This document shows positions 54-61,936 of a DNA stretch of 64,000 bases, piece after piece. A program made the position numbers and the translations under genes. Origin of the DNA: Gottfriedia acidiceleris (lineage in GTDB: Bacteria; Bacillota; Bacilli; Bacillales; Bacillaceae_G); assembly GCF_002128425.1 (NCBI RefSeq), contig NZ_NESS01000004.1:124001-188000 (forward strand), written 5' to 3'. The notes beneath the pieces were generated by a model. It made no database searches. It saw only the letters and a list, made by a program, of their open reading frames with translations, and had not been told where the DNA came from. The first letter of the stretch is position 1; each line of letters opens with the position of its first letter.

Positions 54-2567
54 TTAGATTCCTTTACCGTGGCAGTTTTTATACTTCTTACCTGATCCAC
101 AAGGACAATCTTCATTACGACCAGTCTCTTCGCCTTTTACGATTGGTTTTTTCTTTACTTCACCTTCACCATCATTACTTACATGAATTGCTTCGCCTTG
201 TACAGCTTCACGCTCTACGTCAGCTTCAATTTCAGCTTTCATAATAATGCGAGATACTTCTTCTTCAATTGAAGCAATCATCTCTTCGAACATTGCGAAG
301 CCTTCCATTTGATATTCACGTAGTGGATCAATTTGTGCATATGCACGTAAATGGATTCCTTCACGAAGTTGATCCATTGAATCGATATGAGCCATCCACT
401 TGCTATCAACAGTACGTAATAATACAACTTTTTCAAACTCACGCATTTGTTCAGCTGGTAAAGCTACTTGTTTTTCTTCGTAACGCTCGAATACTGTTTT
501 TTGAATTAATTCAACCATTTCATCCGGTTCAATTACACGTAATTGTTCAACTGTAATTTCATCTTCATTTAATAAGTTTGCTTCTAAGAAATCAATGATT
601 CCTTCTAAATTCCACTCTTCTTGAAGCTGCTCGTTTGGAGTATGAGCTTGAACTACTCTGTTAATAGTACCTTCAATCATATTCTTAACGATTGGTTGTA
701 GATCAGTTGAATCAATAACTTCAGAACGTTGAGCATAAATAACTTCACGTTGTTGACGTAATACATCATCATATTGAAGTAATTGTTTACGAGCATCAAA
801 GTTATTACCTTCTACTCGTTTTTGTGCAGATTCAACTGCACGAGAAACCATTTTACTTTCAATCGGTTGAGAATCATCTAATCCTAAACGGTCCATCATA
901 ACTGATAAATTTTCTGAACCGAAACGACGCATTAATTCATCTTCCATTGATAAATAGAAAGTTGTCACACCAGGGTCACCTTGACGACCAGAACGACCAC
1001 GTAACTGATTATCAATACGACGGCTTTCATGACGCTCTGTACCAATAACAGCTAACCCACCAAGCTCACGAATACCTTCACCTAATTTAATATCTGTACC
1101 ACGACCAGCCATGTTTGTCGCAATCGTAACTGCGCCACGGTGACCAGCTAATGCGATAATATCAGCCTCACGTTCATGGTTTTTCGCATTTAATACTTCG
1201 TGTTTAACACCTTTACGTTTTAACAATTGAGAAATTAACTCTGAAGTCTCGATCGCTACTGTACCAACTAGAACAGGTTGCCCAGCTTTGTGACGTTCAA
1301 CGATTTCATCAACAACAGCATTAAATTTTCCATTCATTGATTTATATACTAGATCAGGTTTATCCATACGAGCGATTGGACGGTTCGTAGGAATAACTAG
1401 AACATTCATATTGTAAATATTACGGAATTCTTCTTCCTCAGTTTTAGCTGTACCTGTCATACCCGAAAGTTTTTTGTACATACGGAAATAGTTTTGGAAA
1501 GTAATTGTCGCAAGCGTCATACTTTCGTTTTGGATTTTTAATCCTTCTTTAGCTTCGATCGCTTGGTGAAGACCTTCACTGTATCGGCGACCTTTCATTA
1601 AACGACCAGTAAATTGGTCAACGATAACAATTTCACCATCTTGAACTACATAATCTACATCATGAGTCATCGTAACGTGAGCACGTAATGCCTGAGTGAT
1701 ATGATGGTTTAAATTAACATTTTTCAAATCAAATAGGTTTTCAACGCCAAAAGCTTTCTCTGCACGTGAAATACCATCTTCAGTTAATAAAACAGATTTT
1801 GTTTTTACATCGTACGTATAATCTTGGTCTAGTTTAAGCATTCCAACAAATGCATTCGCCGCAATGTAAGCTTGTGCAGACTGTTTTGCTTGTCCAGAAA
1901 TGATTAATGGTGTACGTGCTTCATCAATTAAAATTGAGTCAACCTCATCGATAATAGCATAGTTTAGTGGACGTTGTACTCGTTGTTCAGCGTATACAAC
2001 CATGTTATCACGTAAATAGTCAAAACCTAATTCATTATTTGTACTATACGTAATATCACAAGCATATGCTTCACGCTTTTCATCTGGTTCCATACTATTT
2101 AAATTAAGACCAACAGTAAGTCCTAAAAACTCATATAATTGACCCATTTCACGAGCATCACGACTAGCTAAGTATTCATTGACTGTCACAACGTGAACAC
2201 CTTCGCCACTTAATGCATTTAAGTAAACAGGTAAAGTGGAAGTTAAAGTTTTACCTTCCCCGGTTTTCATTTCTGAAATATTACCTTCATGTAAAGAAAT
2301 TCCACCTAATAATTGTACCGGATATGGAGTCATACCAAGCACACGAGTAGCACCTTCACGAACAACGGCAAAAGCTTCAACTAAAATATCATCAAGAGTT
2401 TCACCTTTTTGAATACGCTCTTTAAATTCAAATGTTTTACCTCTAAGTTCATCATCAGATAACTTTGTAAACTGATCCTGTAAAGATAAAACTTGATCAA
2501 CCTGTTTTTGCATTTTATTTAATTGTCGCTGATTAAGATCAAAAACCTTTTTTATCATTCCAAGCAT
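54..2567 (-). CDS. secA: Preprotein translocase ATPase SecA (housekeeping SecA1)
   Basis: SecA is the cytoplasmic motor that pushes Sec substrates through SecYEG. The 837-residue protein has the full family length. Seen: the Walker A motif GEGKT near residues 103-107, the DEAD-type DEVD box near 205-210, the second helicase domain with [10 protein letters not shown], and the C-terminal zinc motif [13 protein letters not shown] that binds SecB or ribosomes. The ATG is preceded by GGAG about 8 bases upstream, and the N-terminus MLGMIKK resembles the B. subtilis protein, so the start is well supported. It lies downstream of hpf, separated from it by a terminator, as in B. subtilis. A second, shorter SecA (SecA2) is encoded at 28335-30719, so this is the general-secretion copy. 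Confidence 0.98.
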
Positions 2568-31727: not shown

Positions 31728-32261
31728 CTACCCATCAGCTGAATATCCTTCTATTAACTCCTTAATCATCATTAACTTTTCTTCATCTGATTTTAGTTTA
31801 TACTCTACTTTCTGACTTAAATACATACTAATTATCTTTGTGGCTTTACTGATTTGTTTATCAAAAATGTAATAAGAAATTGGCAAGATCCTCTCTTCCC
31901 CATTCCTAAACTGTATTTTTGTTTTTCTTTTTTCTTTTATATATTTATTTATTTGGATAAAATTTAGCCATTTGCAAGATATGTTATTTTGCGAAGATGT
32001 AGGAATCATAATAATTGATAATGCGGGATTAATCATAAGAGGAATCTTTTTCATAGTTGGATATTTACTTTTTACGACTTCGAGATGACCTTTAATGGAT
32101 TGATTATGGTAGAGGGCGGATTCTTTCAAGATTGCTCTCATTGGCCGTTTTGAATAGATTACTCCTTTGTTTTTATCTGTTATTTTCGTTAAATACTCTG
32201 GGTGATCTGCAGCTTCAATCAACATTGTTTCATATGATACGACATAATCTAATTTTGACAT
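31728..32261 (-). CDS. comK: Competence transcription factor ComK
   Basis: ComK activates the DNA-uptake genes (including comFA) by binding A/T-rich K-boxes. The 177-residue protein matches the ComK family: the opening YETMLIEAA (compare the NGATIAVLPE region of B. subtilis), KIPLMINPALSIIMIPTSS, the conserved CKWLNF, and the segment FRNGEERILPISYYIFDKQISKA. AAGGAGG lies 6 bases before the ATG. It is transcribed divergently from a small sigma-factor gene across 303 bases. Sequence identity to B. subtilis ComK is modest, but the order of motifs is clear. Confidence 0.85.
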   Translation of the reverse strand: MSKLDYVVSYETMLIEAADHPEYLTKITDKNKGVIYSKRPMRAILKESALYHNQSIKGHLEVVKSKYPTMKKIPLMINPALSIIMIPTSSQNNISCKWLNFIQINKYIKEKRKTKIQFRNGEERILPISYYIFDKQISKATKIISMYLSQKVEYKLKSDEEKLMMIKELIEGYSADG

Positions 32262-32564: not shown

Positions 32565-33086
32565 ATGAAACGTAGTGAAGAACATGTAGATGATCAAGTT
32601 TTTTCAGGAAAATTGAAACCAAATACATTTGAGGAATGCTTAAACCAATATTCCCGAATGATAAAAGCAATTATGAAGAAGTTACATTTATATAAAAACT
32701 TTGATGAATATTATCAAATTGGTCAAATAGCATTATGGACGGCTTATCAACAGTATCAAAGTGAGAAAGGGAGCTTTTCAACTTATGCATTTTTTACAGT
32801 AAGAGGCTATTTACTAAATGAGTTATCCAAAGCAAGTAAATACGATGAACGAAACATAGTCCTCGAGCACAGTATAGAAGATGTCATATATTGTGAAGAG
32901 GCGTTTTCACTTGTTAATTTTATAAGTTTACTAGATGGTATTTCCCCCTTACAGAAGCAAATTCTAATTAAACGCTTCTATTACAATCACGAGTTTCCTC
33001 AAATCGCAAAATATTTAAATATGAAAGAATCCAGTGTACGATCTAGTTATCGTTATGCATTAAAAAGATTAAGAGAGTCAAAATAA
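32565..33086 (+). CDS. Small sigma-70 family factor (region 2 + region 4)
   Basis: The 173-residue protein has a region 2 (about 35-95, YQIGQIALWTAYQQYQSEKGSFSTYAFFTVRGYL, the -10 binding and core-binding helices) and a region 4 helix-turn-helix (about 118-170, LLDGISPLQKQILIKRFYYNHEFPQIAKYLNMKESSVRSSYRYALKRLRE). Regions 1 and 3 are absent. It resembles SigO/ECF-like minor sigma factors of Bacillus. No anti-sigma gene is next to it. It is divergent from comK and could therefore belong to a competence or stress circuit. The ribosome site is weak (AAAGGCAG), preceded by a GGCATGCC palindrome that may affect translation. Confidence 0.8.
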   Translation: MKRSEEHVDDQVFSGKLKPNTFEECLNQYSRMIKAIMKKLHLYKNFDEYYQIGQIALWTAYQQYQSEKGSFSTYAFFTVRGYLLNELSKASKYDERNIVLEHSIEDVIYCEEAFSLVNFISLLDGISPLQKQILIKRFYYNHEFPQIAKYLNMKESSVRSSYRYALKRLRESK

Positions 33087-33134: not shown

Positions 33135-33313
33135 GTCAACCAAACACAAGTCCAGTCCCATTCAAATGACCTATTACTTTCCTCCTACTTTCACCAATTT
33201 TAAAACCGTGCCGTTTTAAGTAGAACTTTACACATTTTTAACGTTTTCTTCCATTTTGGCCTAGACTTTAATATTATTCTAAAATTACTAAATTTTACCA
33301 AGTGATATCGATG

Positions 33314-33343
33314 TTTCGACATTTTTTTCAACAAATGTCGAAA
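33314..33343. promoter_or_regulatory. Inverted pair of Spo0A boxes upstream of sinI
   Basis: TTCGACA (33315-33321) and TGTCGAA (33336-33342) are both perfect copies of the TGTCGAA Spo0A box, in opposite orientation, inside 9-base palindromic arms. They lie about 50 bases upstream of the -35 element of the sinI promoter, a position fit for activation. Spo0A control of sinI is established in B. subtilis. Confidence 0.75.
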
Positions 33344-33391
33344 TTTTTTTCCGTAAAATTTTTTTAAATATTTCAAGTGTGAAAAAACTCA

Positions 33392-33419
33392 TTGATTTAT
33401 CTAATGTATTTAATATAAT
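33392..33419 (+). promoter_or_regulatory. Sigma-A type promoter for the riboswitch-sinI transcript
   Basis: TTGATT (33392-33397) and a perfect TATAAT (33414-33419) are separated by 16 bases. Transcription would begin near 33426, giving a leader of about 280 bases that contains the riboswitch. Confidence 0.65.
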
Positions 33420-33542
33420 TGAAATATTATTAATGTTATTGTTTTTTTTGATACTACAAATTCCTACAAACTACGTATTGGATTCATTATATAATTGTTT
33501 TATAAATTTTTTAAAAATTGTAATAATTATATCGGAACTCTC

Positions 33543-33674
33543 TCTAGAAAAAGGCAAACCAATTGAGAGATTGGGACGCAAAGCCACTGATCTTAGTTGT
33601 AAATATAGAGAAAAAGCACTGGTTCACTGTATTTTTTAACTATTAAACGAACTAAGATAGCAGGGTTACCTAGG
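33543..33674 (+). ncRNA. Cyclic di-GMP class I riboswitch (GEMM-I) in the sinI leader
   Basis: The conserved core is present in order: GGCAAACC (33553-33560), a short stem with a GAGA loop, GGGACGCAAAGCC (33573-33585), a stem ATCTTAGTT (33590-33598) / AACTAAGAT (33650-33658) with a long loop, and the 3' segment TAGCAGGGTTACC (33658-33670). Outer arms TCTAG (33543) and CTAGG (33670) can close P1. Downstream, AGGTATTTTATACCT (33672-33686) can form a hairpin that competes with P1, just ahead of the sinI ribosome site AGGAGG (33694-33699). This suggests control of termination or translation; the direction of control cannot be read from sequence alone. Confidence 0.93.
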
Positions 33675-33708
33675 TATTTTATACCTTAATTTTAGGAGGC
33701 CATTATCC

Positions 33709-33846
33709 ATGTACAGTGAATTGGAAAATCATTCTGCCGAATTAAACTGGATCGACTTACTACTAGAGTGCATTGAAGTAGGCATAAGTCCTGATGAAGT
33801 GCGGTCATTTCTTTACAATTGCGTTAAAGATTCATGTCAAAACTAG
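33709..33846 (+). CDS. sinI: SinI-family anti-repressor (45 residues)
   Basis: SinI binds SinR and removes it from DNA, switching cells to matrix production. This 45-residue protein carries the SinI dimerisation motif LNWIDLLLECIEVGISPDEVRSFLYN, matching the WVDLIVEAKEANISPEEIRKYL helix-turn-helix of B. subtilis SinI. AGGAGG lies 9 bases before the ATG. It sits directly after the c-di-GMP riboswitch and 62 bases before sinR. Two to three cysteines near the C-terminus are unlike B. subtilis SinI. Confidence 0.9.
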   Translation: MYSELENHSAELNWIDLLLECIEVGISPDEVRSFLYNCVKDSCQN

Positions 33847-33908: not shown

Positions 33909-34229
33909 ATGATTGGAGAACGAATTAAAAAACTACGTTTACAACATGGAATGTCACTTACAGAGCTTGCAGAACGTGCTGGTATAGCAAAATCTTACAT
34001 AAGTTCGATTGAACGAAATCTACAAAGCAATCCTTCAATTCAAGTACTTGAAAAAATTGCTGGCGTCTTCAATACAACGGCAGAAAGCCTCCTGAAAGAT
34101 GATATTGATCCAACAAAAATAATTGATTCTGAATGGATGGACATCCTTCAAGAAGCAATTAATTCAGGTATACCAAAAGATGAATTAATAAAATTTATTG
34201 AGTTTAATAAGTATAAGCAAGGCAAATAA
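33909..34229 (+). CDS. sinR: Biofilm master repressor SinR
   Basis: SinR represses matrix and exopolysaccharide operons. The 106-residue protein has an N-terminal Xre-type helix-turn-helix (residues 1-66, SLTELAERAGIAKSYISSIERNLQSNPSIQVLEKIA, close to B. subtilis SinR) and a C-terminal tetramerisation/SinI-binding region (about 74-103, DSEWMDILQEAINSGIPKDELIKFIEF). That region is similar in pattern to SinI itself. GGAG lies 8 bases before the ATG. A TATGAT-like -10 in the 62-base gap may give sinR its own promoter, as in B. subtilis. Candidate targets carry GTTC-N8-GAAC (see the operator entries). Confidence 0.95.
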   Translation: MIGERIKKLRLQHGMSLTELAERAGIAKSYISSIERNLQSNPSIQVLEKIAGVFNTTAESLLKDDIDPTKIIDSEWMDILQEAINSGIPKDELIKFIEFNKYKQGK

Positions 34230-34325: not shown

Positions 34326-35504
34326 TTATTTACGTAAATCATATTTTAAAGATATGTTATCGATATATCCAGCATCTTTGCTTGCACTTCCAGACTTATC
34401 TTTAGCATACGTAAGTTTTAACACATGTTTACCTGGTTTAACCCCAAGATTTACTTTAGACCAGTGGTTATCTGTTCCTGATGCATCGACAAGAACATCG
34501 CCATCTAATGAAATTGTTAAGATATCTTTATTTAGTTGTGAAAGAACTAAATAATCAAAAGATAAGAATGCGTTATAAGCGTTATCCGGTACATTAATTG
34601 TCACTTCAGCAGTAGAAGAACTATTATTAGAAATATTATTGCTAATTAAATAATAGTCAGTTTTCCCATCTATATTTGATTTAATTCTTTCCCAATCACC
34701 AGAAATAGAGAAAGGTGAACTTGCACCCTCAAAATCTTCTAAAGTACTGTTTTGTGGCTTATACACATCACCAACAATAGCATCTAACTGGCTAATCGTA
34801 TCGTTTTTAATTGTTGTCGCTTTAGTAGCTAATGCTTTTGATTTTTTAAATTCTAAATCATTTGTTGCAGTATTAATGACATCTGTTATTCTAGCAATTT
34901 CACCTGCTAAATAGTCTTTTAGTTTTGCATCACTAGTGTTTTTTTGTACTTCAATTAATTCTGCTAAACTTGCTTTCGCTTTATCTAATTCCTCTTCTAA
35001 AGCATCAAGTGCCTTTGCTTGCTCAGCAGTTATTGATAGTTTACCGTTTGCAACTTGTGAACTGAAGTCTGGTTTTAATCCGTTTACTTCAGATTCAACT
35101 CCACTAGTAGTTTGTCCATTTAGTCGATCTACTAATTGAGTAAATTCGTTTGGCGTATTTTGTTTAATGCCCGTTAAAGCGTTGTTGATCGCTTCAACGT
35201 GTTCGTTCGACTGATCATTAATTGTATTAACTCCCGCTTGAGATAATTCACCTTGTTTATTATTTACCCCATCTTCTGAGTTAGATAACAAAGAACCTAA
35301 TCGATCTTTCATCGCACCAATTGCATCTGAAGTTTTCGCACCTAATGTACTACTTACAGTTGATTGCGCGTCCTTTAATAGTTGAGAGGCAAAATTTGTA
35401 AATAATTCCCCAGCATTTGTAGATGCAAATGCTGTACCTGTTGTTAAAATTCCTGCAGCCAATATACCGACTACAACTTTCTTTTTAATTGATTTCTTCT
35501 CCAT
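34326..35504 (-). CDS. Secreted coiled-coil protein with C-terminal beta-sandwich, in the TasA position
   Basis: I do not recognise a named family. The 392-residue protein has a signal peptide (cleavage likely after TAFA) and a mature start STNAGELFTNFASQ. A long helical region follows (about 30-245), rich in Ala, Lys and Asp with coiled-coil heptads (ALDALEEELDKAKASLAELIEV). The C-terminal domain (about 255-392, DWERIKSNIDGKTDYYLISNN ... GYIDNISLKY) has the look of a carbohydrate-binding beta-sandwich. The ATG at 35504 follows GGAGG; a longer reading from 35522 has no ribosome site. It is the last gene of a four-gene operon and convergent to sinR, exactly where B. subtilis has tasA. A role as matrix fibre or polysaccharide-binding protein is inferred from context. 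Confidence 0.75.
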   Translation of the reverse strand: MEKKSIKKKVVVGILAAGILTTGTAFASTNAGELFTNFASQLLKDAQSTVSSTLGAKTSDAIGAMKDRLGSLLSNSEDGVNNKQGELSQAGVNTINDQSNEHVEAINNALTGIKQNTPNEFTQLVDRLNGQTTSGVESEVNGLKPDFSSQVANGKLSITAEQAKALDALEEELDKAKASLAELIEVQKNTSDAKLKDYLAGEIARITDVINTATNDLEFKKSKALATKATTIKNDTISQLDAIVGDVYKPQNSTLEDFEGASSPFSISGDWERIKSNIDGKTDYYLISNNISNNSSSTAEVTINVPDNAYNAFLSFDYLVLSQLNKDILTISLDGDVLVDASGTDNHWSKVNLGVKPGKHVLKLTYAKDKSGSASKDAGYIDNISLKYDLRK

Positions 35505-35530
35505 TTTCGTTCGTGCCTCCATTAGACAGA

Positions 35531-36103
35531 TTACACTTTAAGTGGTTTCGCAATTTTATGAATAGGTAATATTGAAATAAGTACATAACCCTTAATGTCT
35601 TTAATAGGTATAAATCCAAAATCTTTACTTCGGCTATCGAAGCTTATTCCCGGCTCTCGATTATCACCAACAACAAATATCTTGTTTTTAGGAACCGTTA
35701 TTTTTTCCATATCTTCAGAAGTCCCGTTTGTCGAGATTTCCGGCACTGGTTCATTATTTACGTAAATAATTCCATTCTTTATAAAAACAGTGTCTCCAGG
35801 AACTCCAATAATTCGTTTTACAACATCAAATCCTTCAGCTTGTAATTTCATAATCGCAACATCACCAAGTTCAGGATCATGAGTGTAACGAGCTAATTTA
35901 TTCACAAATACTAAATCCCCATCGTTCAAAGTAGGGTACATTGAAAATCCGCTAACTTTTGTAAGTCCAACTGTATTTAGTAAAACTACTAAAAGAACAC
36001 TTAAAATAAGAAAGAACCTCATCCATTCTATTAATGACTGACCAATATTTTTTGCGTTTTTATCTTCTACTGTTTTTTGTTCTTCAATTTTTGAAGCATT
36101 CAT
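35531..36103 (-). CDS. Dedicated type I signal peptidase (prokaryotic type, SipW position)
   Basis: The 190-residue enzyme has one membrane helix (about 29-47) and the catalytic Ser54 in SGFSMYP. It also has the general base Lys96 in DVVKRIIGVPGD and box E GDNRE.GISFDSR. It is therefore an ordinary Ser-Lys peptidase, not the Ser-His ER-type found in SipW. Its ATG shares one base with the stop of the preceding gene (TAATG), giving coupling. Placed between the secreted-protein genes, it probably processes them: all three share an F-A-[S/D]-T-N cleavage site. Confidence 0.9.
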   Translation of the reverse strand: MNASKIEEQKTVEDKNAKNIGQSLIEWMRFFLILSVLLVVLLNTVGLTKVSGFSMYPTLNDGDLVFVNKLARYTHDPELGDVAIMKLQAEGFDVVKRIIGVPGDTVFIKNGIIYVNNEPVPEISTNGTSEDMEKITVPKNKIFVVGDNREPGISFDSRSKDFGFIPIKDIKGYVLISILPIHKIAKPLKV

Positions 36104-36678
36104 TACTGTTGACCTTCCCCGCTAGACTGATCTTGGCTGTTTGTATTTTGTGAATCATCATTTTTCGAATTTGATGTTTCATTGGATTTATTTCCATTAT
36201 TTGAATTTGCCTTAGGAACCTGCTTATTAATTTCTTCTTTTGCCTGCTCCTGAGCATTTTGTATTATTTTATCAATTCTTGCTTTTGCTTCTTGTACATC
36301 TTTTTCGTTCTTACTATCTATTTGTTTGATCAATTGATCTCCATACCTTTGAAGCTCTTCTTGTGATTCTAAGCTTTTTTGCGTTGCATATTGTTGAATT
36401 TCTTCTGCAGATTCATAAGACTTTTCTTGCACTTCTTTAACTAAGCGTGCTTTTTGCTTTATTGTTTCTGCTTCTGTCATGCTAATAATATAATCACTTG
36501 CTTCCTGAGTTTGTTTTTTTGTCCATGCAGTCATTGCTGCTGGTAAATTCGTATCAGCAAATGAAAACGTTGTTGCAATTAGTAACCCGCCACTTAACGT
36601 AACAGATCCAATTAAAAGCTTATTAAATTTTTTGGAGATCCATGTTTGTTTTTTAGTTTTTTCAGTATTATTCTGCAT
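36103..36678 (-). CDS. Secreted coiled-coil protein with hydrophilic Asn/Ser tail, in the TapA-like operon
   Basis: The 191-residue protein has a basic start, a hydrophobic signal segment (about 23-42) and a likely cleavage site FSFA followed by DTNLPAAM. A long amphipathic helix rich in Gln, Glu and Lys (about 50-150) follows, then a low-complexity tail of Asn, Ser, Asp and Gln. No known domain is recognised. It resembles an assembly or anchoring partner in composition only. GGGAGGT precedes the ATG. It lies between the 256-residue gene and the signal peptidase gene, coupled to the latter. Confidence 0.75.
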   Translation of the reverse strand: MQNNTEKTKKQTWISKKFNKLLIGSVTLSGGLLIATTFSFADTNLPAAMTAWTKKQTQEASDYIISMTEAETIKQKARLVKEVQEKSYESAEEIQQYATQKSLESQEELQRYGDQLIKQIDSKNEKDVQEAKARIDKIIQNAQEQAKEEINKQVPKANSNNGNKSNETSNSKNDDSQNTNSQDQSSGEGQQ

Positions 36679-36731
36679 AATTTACCTCCCAATGACTACA
36701 ATGAAAAACAAACTTTTAAGGAATTTACTTC

Positions 36732-37502
36732 TTACTTATTAATTGCATCTACTAAATCTTGCAGTTCTTTAGTTGCATTGCTAACAGTTTGCTTTTGTGT
36801 ATCCTCTAAAGTTTTGATAGAAGCAGCTTCTTCGGCATCAATTTCAGCTTTAAGTGAAGCTTCAATACGAGCAATCTCAGATGATAAATGCTCTAATACA
36901 GCTTTTTCAGAATCAGATGATTGTCCATTAATTAAAGTAGAAATCTCAGTTTTAGCATCATTAATTTTTTGCGTTAAAGTGCTCACAGCTGATGTACGAG
37001 ACGAATTTAAATTAGACTGAAGTTTTGAATCCGCACCTTTAGCAACCGCTGATAGTTGCGCGTTAAAGCTACTGTTTAATGTATCTGCTAAAGCATTTAA
37101 ATCAGATGTTGTTTTACCATTTGTTGTTGAAACATAGTTAGCAAAATCAGCTGGAATACTCATATTTAAAGCTGCCATAGCTTCAGAAATTGCAGTAATA
37201 TGTTCATTTAACGCTGCACTAATTTGTTGATTTGCTAATTTTGTTTGAGCATCTCCTACTGATTCGATCGTGTTTGCAGCATCAACTTTGTAGTTATTTA
37301 CATCAGTTTTCATATCTGCAACAGAAGTATCATATTTTGATTTATATGATGAAGAAAGATCTGTTTTCGCATCAGAAGTTTTCGAATTAGCCCAGTTCGT
37401 TAATAACTCCCCTGCGTTAGTACTTGCGAATGCAATTCCTCCAGAAATAACTAAACCAGCAGATACAATCCCTATTACAACTTTACTCTTAACTTTTTTC
37501 AT
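36732..37502 (-). CDS. Secreted helical protein, first gene of the matrix-type operon
   Basis: No named family is recognised. The 256-residue protein has a signal peptide (cleavage after IAFA, residue 26) and a mature start STNAGELLTNWAN. This start is almost the same as that of the 392-residue protein encoded at 34326-35504 (STNAGELFTNFAS). The rest is predicted almost all helix, rich in Ala, Ser, Thr and Asp and without Cys. The two proteins are clearly paralogous over at least the first 60 residues and in their helical part (ANQQISAALNEHITAISEAM against NDQSNEHVEAINNAL). AGGGAG precedes the ATG. A SinR-type operator lies 40 bases upstream. Suggested role: structural matrix subunit. Confidence 0.78.
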   Translation of the reverse strand: MKKVKSKVVIGIVSAGLVISGGIAFASTNAGELLTNWANSKTSDAKTDLSSSYKSKYDTSVADMKTDVNNYKVDAANTIESVGDAQTKLANQQISAALNEHITAISEAMAALNMSIPADFANYVSTTNGKTTSDLNALADTLNSSFNAQLSAVAKGADSKLQSNLNSSRTSAVSTLTQKINDAKTEISTLINGQSSDSEKAVLEHLSSEIARIEASLKAEIDAEEAASIKTLEDTQKQTVSNATKELQDLVDAINK

Positions 37503-61799: not shown

Positions 61800-61905
61800 A
61801 TTAGGCATCTAACCTGCCCTCACACTACACTTTCGACGACTGGCGTCTAAGGTTTATTCAACCCACAGCATAACCGAGTGCCTTCGTTGATAAAGGTTAG
61901 AAGAC
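61800..61905 (-). ncRNA. EAR (epsC) processive antitermination RNA, probable
   Basis: The epsB-epsC gap holds a patch that is clearly more GC-rich than its flanks. A perfect 8-base long-range pairing (61808-61815 with 61894-61901, TCTAACCT / AGGTTAGA) closes it. Inner hairpins GGTT-AACC and GACG-CGTC can form. The patch ends in GGCA-TGCC followed by TTTTTTT. In B. subtilis and relatives the EAR element occupies this exact position and lets RNA polymerase read through terminators in the eps operon. Position and foldability are seen; family membership needs a covariance search. Confidence 0.72.
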
Positions 61906-61936
61906 ATCACCTACAAACTTTTAATCGTCAAGATTT

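Follow-up and report, generated by a model that had tools for sequence, protein, structure and literature searches.

Judged from its sequence, the leader of sinI in Gottfriedia acidiceleris is a real and conserved class I c-di-GMP (c-di-GMP-I) riboswitch, with c-di-GMP as the predicted ligand. Folding models suggest that this sinI(-sinR) leader acts as a translational ON switch, a reading to which we assign a probability of about 0.7. In the window, i.e., the whole 64,000-nt stretch of DNA analysed here, the elements of the locus follow one another between positions 33313 and 34229 in the order (5′ to 3′) Spo0A-type box pair, sigma-A-like promoter, aptamer, Shine-Dalgarno (SD) sequence, sinI, and sinR.

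The aptamer and the gene it precedes

The initial annotation proposed a class I c-di-GMP aptamer upstream of sinI, and both Rfam models score it above their curated cut-offs. The plus-strand segment 33544-33674 matches RF01051 (GEMM-I) at 68.1 bits (cut-off 35; E 5.8e-13 for the genome) and, over its full length, RF03167 (c-di-GMP-I-GGC) at 64.8 bits, above the gathering score of 59 (E 4.8e-13). The covariance model R1, built from an alignment (A2) of 30 aptamers of other genomes, 22 of them from sinI loci, with the window excluded, gives 69.2 bits (E 3.4e-15). The window aptamer is the sole RF03167/RF01051 match in the 4.77-Mb genome, and the match is far above chance. A c-di-GMP-II search of the same genome gave no match; the control genomes for that search were equally without a match, and hence the result is uninformative.

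The core motifs GGCAAAC, GACGCAAA, and GG-YUACC are present together with a GAGA loop (GNRA-type) on P2. The ligand position is occupied by G33554, which we take to be the ligand-contacting G20; a G at this position is invariant in the 30 A2 aptamers and is kept in 11 of the 12 aligned Gottfriedia aptamers. The 131-nt aptamer has a P3 about 50 nt longer than that of RF03167, and the sequence UCUAAGG..CUAUGA, common in A2 and presumably the tetraloop receptor on P3, is replaced by a helix. The long P3 and the replaced receptor sequence are consistent with the match to RF03167 and the GGC type, from which the window aptamer differs by its enlarged P3 and by its target gene, sinI. In the Gottfriedia alignment (12 of 13 genomes; G003 left out) the core, P1, and the platform vary less than the 5′ flank and the P3 loop, and P1 has undergone a compensatory change from CUAG/CUAG to CCAG/CUGG in L005 and L016.

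In Bacillus sp. AFS041924 the aptamer preceding sinI (L014 1501-1630; L148 1636-1765) carries several G-to-A changes, including one at the presumed ligand-contacting G20, and scores 41 bits; its sequence suggests decay or an altered ligand. A decayed or re-targeted aptamer, binding another dinucleotide or none, would fit this case, but the conservation of the G in Gottfriedia and in A2 noted above makes such a fate very improbable for the window aptamer.

The end of the aptamer lies 34 nt from the start of sinI. As first annotated, this gene has 45 codons (33709-33846, plus strand, ATG at 33709) and is preceded by the SD sequence AGGAGG (33694-33699), whose GGAGG is invariant in the Gottfriedia alignment. 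The product scores 30.0 bits against the SinI family PF08671, just below the cut-off of 31.4 (E 4.3e-7), and 26.8 bits against the subtilis-type SinI equivalog NF046031, below the required 80. These scores identify it as a SinI relative, apparently outside the NF046031 equivalog. A SinI HMM built from 18 seeds, mostly ORFs found behind aptamers, also recovers the window sinI, which is a seed member there. The downstream gene sinR (33909-34229, plus strand) encodes an HTH repressor (PF01381, 64.1 bits) with a PF08671-like tail at residues 72-99 (28.7 bits, cut-off 31.4, E 1.1e-6), and the name sinI is supported because the ORF precedes a sinR that encodes such a tail. Sites of the form GTTCTYT, which we take to be the SinR operator consensus, number 25 in the window vs. 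25.3 expected, i.e., without excess.

Spo0A-type boxes, promoter, and genomic neighbourhood

The paired Spo0A boxes described at the outset were found as an inverted pair, with TGTCGAA on the minus strand at 33315-33321 (TTCGACA on the plus strand) and on the plus strand at 33336-33342. We take TG[TA]CGAA to be the Spo0A box consensus; the 7-mer TGTCGAA occurs in 7 exact copies on both strands of the window. The plus-strand box is present in all eight named Gottfriedia-clade loci, while its minus-strand partner is present in L144-L148 and degenerate in L149 and L150. A terminator scan flags the pair as terminator-like. The reading that the pair is a mere terminator of the upstream sigma-like gene was nevertheless rejected, since L149 and L150 keep the plus-strand box alone with the other arm broken. 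Among 63 named loci, the 300 nt upstream of the aptamer hold 27 exact boxes vs. 2.6 expected from shuffles. At least one exact box is found at 21 of these loci (2.6 by shuffles) and none at the other 42, in a count that includes related loci repeatedly, eight of the 21 being from Gottfriedia.

The sigma-A-like promoter, TTGATT-16-TATAAT (33392-33419, plus strand), lies 5′ of the aptamer where a sigma-A promoter had been noted, and is a consensus match alone, at 10 of 12 positions. The A+T-rich stretch yields many such sites (16 vs. 6.1 in shuffles), and the match alone is therefore weak evidence; the promoter scan found no plus-strand promoter-like site within the aptamer. The initial annotation also suggested that c-di-GMP and Spo0A converge at sinI. 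Given the covariance score, the upstream promoter-like site, the conserved leader-sinI order, and the box enrichment, this convergence is well supported as an inference.

Three GGDEF proteins with GGEEF motifs and one EAL-family match were found in the genome, and c-di-GMP is therefore probably made in this organism. Beside sinR, an operon on the minus strand (34326-37502) includes a signal peptidase (35531-36103), and we take it to resemble the tapA-sipW-tasA neighbourhood of sinIR in Bacillus subtilis. The genes flanking the signal peptidase (34326-35522, 36103-36678, and 36732-37502, minus strand) gave no Pfam match; their products look secreted and are possibly matrix proteins. An epsC (EAR) RNA (61802-61912, minus strand; RF01735, 109.6 bits) leads a long exopolysaccharide operon, which thus shares one 64-kb window with sinIR and the signal-peptidase operon. 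A sigma-70 family factor gene (32565-33086, plus strand; PRK06759, 133.1 bits, cut-off 133) is located just 5′ of sinI and is itself preceded by a ComK-family gene (31728-32261, minus strand).

Expression platform and direction of the switch

The sequence elements and their conservation are observed, while the alternative pairings discussed here are folding predictions. In most relatives the 3′ strand of P1 continues as CUG(G/A)AAUAC, which can pair with GUAUUUUAG; the last bases of GUAUUUUAG form the beginning of the ribosome site. Among 44 aligned non-Gottfriedia leaders, the nine base pairs of this alternative hairpin are standard in 33-43 rows each. Its predicted energy is -5.8 vs. -1.5 kcal/mol in shuffles, and it reaches a level of 0.05 or below in 38 of 54 non-Gottfriedia leaders. 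When P1 was imposed on the folding of these 54 leaders, the openness of the ribosome site rose by 0.28 vs. 0.12 in shuffled leaders, which also open somewhat when P1 is imposed. The rise exceeded the shuffles in 43 of the 54; openness increased by more than 0.1 in 37 and decreased in 2. A first set of 47 leaders behaved similarly (33 up, 3 down; rise 0.25 vs. 0.12; above shuffles in 32 of 47). L194 was skipped in the platform folding, its called start being far away.

A platform that excludes P1 is hence clear in the folding of relatives and weak in that of Gottfriedia. At eight Gottfriedia loci imposing P1 changed the openness by +0.08 vs. +0.03 in shuffles, and at none of them did the hairpin reach 0.05 or below relative to shuffles; in a set of 12 loci, two moved in the opposite direction by about 0.1 or more (L013, -0.19; L014, -0.10). 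With such a weak folding effect within the genus, the direction of the switch in Gottfriedia rests partly on homology.

In the predicted ligand-free minimum-energy fold of the window leader (-43.9 kcal/mol), the 5′ side of P1 pairs with UUUUAGGAGGCC and the platform hairpin AGGUAU-UUU-AUACCU (33672-33686) is closed; the fold with P1 imposed has -37.6 kcal/mol. More precisely, the P1 5′ strand UCUAG (33543-33547) with its flanks (33534-33549) is modelled to pair with the SD region (33690-33701), and the P1 3′ strand CUAGG (33670-33674) is common to P1 and the platform hairpin. Pairing between the P1 5′ strand and the SD was rejected as a general rule (-5.15 vs. -5.12 in shuffles; 47 loci); pairing of this strand with the ribosome site is seen at the single loci L131, L067, L088, L093, and L125 and in the minimum-energy fold of the window.

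The platform hairpin also bears on a transcriptional mechanism, in which the hairpin followed by UUAAUUUU would act as a weak terminator or pause, its 5′ arm overlapping P1, such that c-di-GMP prevents or causes attenuation. Its overlap with the P1 3′ strand and the U-rich stretch behind it are in keeping with this possibility, as are the GGUAU/AUACC stem, invariant in 12 aligned Gottfriedia sequences around a variable loop, and a hairpin at the same place but with different letters in G. endophytica. However, the hairpin has only -4.1 kcal/mol, not above shuffles, and is missing from the output of the terminator scan, and relatives with the other hairpin also commonly have UUUU ahead of their ribosome site. 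We consider transcriptional control unlikely. An OFF switch, by which c-di-GMP would lower SinI, is less probable still. Folds that fit it were obtained for three of the 47 leaders of the first set and, in the second set, for two of the 54 non-Gottfriedia and one of the eight Gottfriedia leaders, whereas imposing P1 opens the ribosome site in most leaders. Moreover, in Bacillus thuringiensis 407 high c-di-GMP was accompanied by increases in sinI expression and in biofilm (PMC7793685, the available text of which names no riboswitch for sinI). An effect in the reverse direction, from sinR-type genes to c-di-GMP, is described for Clostridioides difficile, where a sinRR' mutant has more c-di-GMP (PMC5864091, in the text available).

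For the translational ON switch we infer ligand binding, the direction of switching, and the phenotype as follows. Phosphorylated Spo0A would start the transcript. In the absence of c-di-GMP, P1 would open, and in most relatives the freed 3′ strand CUG(G/A)AAUAC would pair with GUAUUUUAG, masking the beginning of the ribosome site; the model of the window leader instead has the 5′ side of P1 paired with UUUUAGGAGGCC. Binding of c-di-GMP would close P1 and free the ribosome site, resulting in more SinI, which would neutralise SinR and thereby derepress matrix genes.

Occurrence among relatives and relation to known systems

A c-di-GMP-I aptamer precedes sinI in all 13 Gottfriedia genomes. In 12 of these the arrangement is aptamer-sinI-sinR, and the thirteenth (G003, L141) has the same order with a 174-nt aptamer. 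The best alignment matches of sinR are from G. acidiceleris, G. solisilvae, G. endophytica, and close Bacillus sp. records. G. solisilvae and Bacillus sp. EAC (L151, L152) carry second sinR-like paralogues at distances of approximately 8 and 12 kb from the first copy; neither sinI nor an aptamer was found in the stretch examined there.

The search of related genomes proposed with the initial annotation showed conservation of the leader-sinI order well outside Gottfriedia, in three sample sets that have some genomes in common and were counted without weighting for relatedness. The named set comprises the best 80 of at least 551 SinR-like loci. R1 finds an aptamer (E < 0.001) at 64 of the 80, among which L157, L159, L164, and L217 match by construction, as their aptamers (L081, L084, L100, and L097) belong to A2. 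A sinI-like ORF is present at 75 of the 80 loci and has the aptamer directly upstream at 60 (gap -20 to +35 nt), sinI being in tandem with sinR at 24 of these and convergent at 36. The other four aptamer loci comprise three with a sinI-like ORF whose start was called early (L178, L201, and L220) and one without an ORF (L222). No R1 aptamer was detected at that threshold at 16 loci (L214 has a weak match of 18.2 bits), 12 of which carry a sinI-like ORF (12 of 75 overall). Genera with the aptamer-sinI arrangement include Neobacillus, Peribacillus, Cytobacillus, Mesobacillus, Niallia, Sutcliffiella, Salirhabdus, Oceanobacillus, Fredinandcohnia, Alkalihalobacillus, and Evansella.

The order sample consists of 80 regions picked by hand among the PF08671 matches listed, mostly one or two per genus, with L141 picked for its aptamer. 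The regions extend only about 200-300 nt past the match, and because of these short flanks a convergent sinI can be missed, as at L083, where the L181 region shows one. An aptamer at or above the gathering score was found in 32 regions, in 31 of which a sinI-like ORF starts -30 to +60 nt from the aptamer end; at L094 the ORF was called too early and runs through the aptamer. Altogether 52 of the 80 regions have a sinI-like ORF, 32 with and 20 without an aptamer, three of the latter being truncated by the end of the region, and sinI directly precedes sinR in 39, with an aptamer in 27 of the 39. In the class sample, 45 of 250 genomes had a SinI match and 30 loci were taken. Each of the 14 R1 aptamers found there is followed or overlapped by a called sinI-like ORF on its own strand, and eight of them represent as many families beyond the order (L230, L232, L234, L237, L241, L248, L249, and L256); 10 of the 24 loci with a sinI-like ORF are without an aptamer.

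Since it lies upstream of sinI in both the tandem (24) and the convergent (36) loci of the named set, the aptamer goes with sinI and not with sinR. This bears on the reading that the leader lies outside the sinI mRNA or that the aptamer is an antisense element for sinR, as proposed in 2023 for a c-di-GMP-I element at a SinR homologue in Paenibacillus (PMC9943018, in the text available). Like the window, that locus has a c-di-GMP-I aptamer beside a sinR gene, there read as antisense to it. Against such a reading stand the spacing of only 34 nt between aptamer and sinI, the 36 convergent loci with the aptamer before sinI on the sinI strand, and L256, from another order, where a small sinI ORF lies between aptamer and sinR in the convergent layout. 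For the window we regard it as the least probable of the explanations considered. Convergent layouts such as that of L256 suggest, on the contrary, that the Paenibacillus element may act on a small sinI overlooked at that locus. Among the loci with more than one unit, L067 has two c-di-GMP-I aptamers in series (738-826 and 1441-1531, minus strand), each before its own sinI-like ORF, with sinR after the second, and L196 and L207 each have two sinI-like genes, tandem and convergent to sinR, with an aptamer found at the tandem one only.

On a SinR tree of 80 rows, aptamer presence requires 11 changes and sinI orientation eight; many forks are unresolved, and these counts cannot separate gain from loss. 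In genus g2 of the same family, two genomes have a tandem sinI-sinR without an aptamer (L068, L076) and, in each, a separate sinI with one (L026, L027); L024, L026, and L027 are aptamer-sinI units without sinR in the stretch examined. Two further genera of the same family (G017, G018) have SinI matches without a c-di-GMP-I match. No aptamer was found at L246, L252, and L255, whose SinI comes nearest to that of the B. subtilis equivalog (57.8, 83.8, and 77.7 bits, respectively, with a cut-off of 80), while another genus of their family, f43 (L231, L243, and L244), carries the aptamer.

In B. subtilis, sinI and sinR are in tandem. The initial annotation knew of no riboswitch at sinI there, in agreement with the lack of a c-di-GMP-I match in the 14 control genomes, B. 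subtilis among them. B. subtilis sinI has the Spo0A-linked control and the SinI-SinR antagonism (PMC8876208 and PMC4879592, in the text available) that are predicted for the window sinI, and differs from it in having no c-di-GMP-I match in the genome searched. Loss of the aptamer in the B. subtilis lineage would be the simplest reading of these sequences. Such a loss would fit the statement that c-di-GMP is present in B. subtilis and not involved in biofilm control (PMC4879592, 2016, in the text available).

The aptamer-sinI arrangement is not wholly new, as riboswitches of this kind are known and an example was published in 2015. Table 4 of an RNA-seq study of Bacillus methanolicus MGA3 (PMC4342826) gives a predicted "(c-di-GMP)-sinI" riboswitch, directly upstream of sinI as in the window. 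In the text available, this report is a single table row for one species and includes neither a test nor a platform, a link to Spo0A, or a broader survey. It is the only mention of a c-di-GMP riboswitch at sinI in the open-access literature searched, which covers few subscription journals and no bioRxiv. The Bc2 riboswitch of cbpA/cap in the B. cereus group (PMC7423583, in the text available) is likewise of c-di-GMP-I type, from a Bacillus relative, and ON, the direction predicted for the window; it differs in controlling transcription, and of an adhesin gene rather than a matrix switch. What was not found in the literature searched is the breadth of the arrangement, the shared platform, the pairing with Spo0A, and the reading of "antisense" riboswitches as those of a missed sinI.

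Collectively, we lean toward the view that direct control of SinI translation by c-di-GMP is usual in much of Bacilli and probably of early origin, that Spo0A acts on this transcript as well, that the B. subtilis lineage lost it or never had it, and that some "antisense" c-di-GMP riboswitches at sinR would be sense riboswitches of an overlooked sinI. The breadth, the shared platform, and the pairing with Spo0A make the arrangement more than a single curiosity. SinI/SinR is the textbook biofilm switch, and sinI starts the Bacillus biofilm programme. As the aptamer is present in many Bacillus relatives and was not found at the sampled subtilis-type sinI genes, a direct link of two routes of biofilm signalling may have been largely overlooked, and B. 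subtilis may be atypical rather than representative. With a c-di-GMP riboswitch in the sinI leader, a single short mRNA would integrate the signals of c-di-GMP and Spo0A, providing a direct and testable route in many genera.
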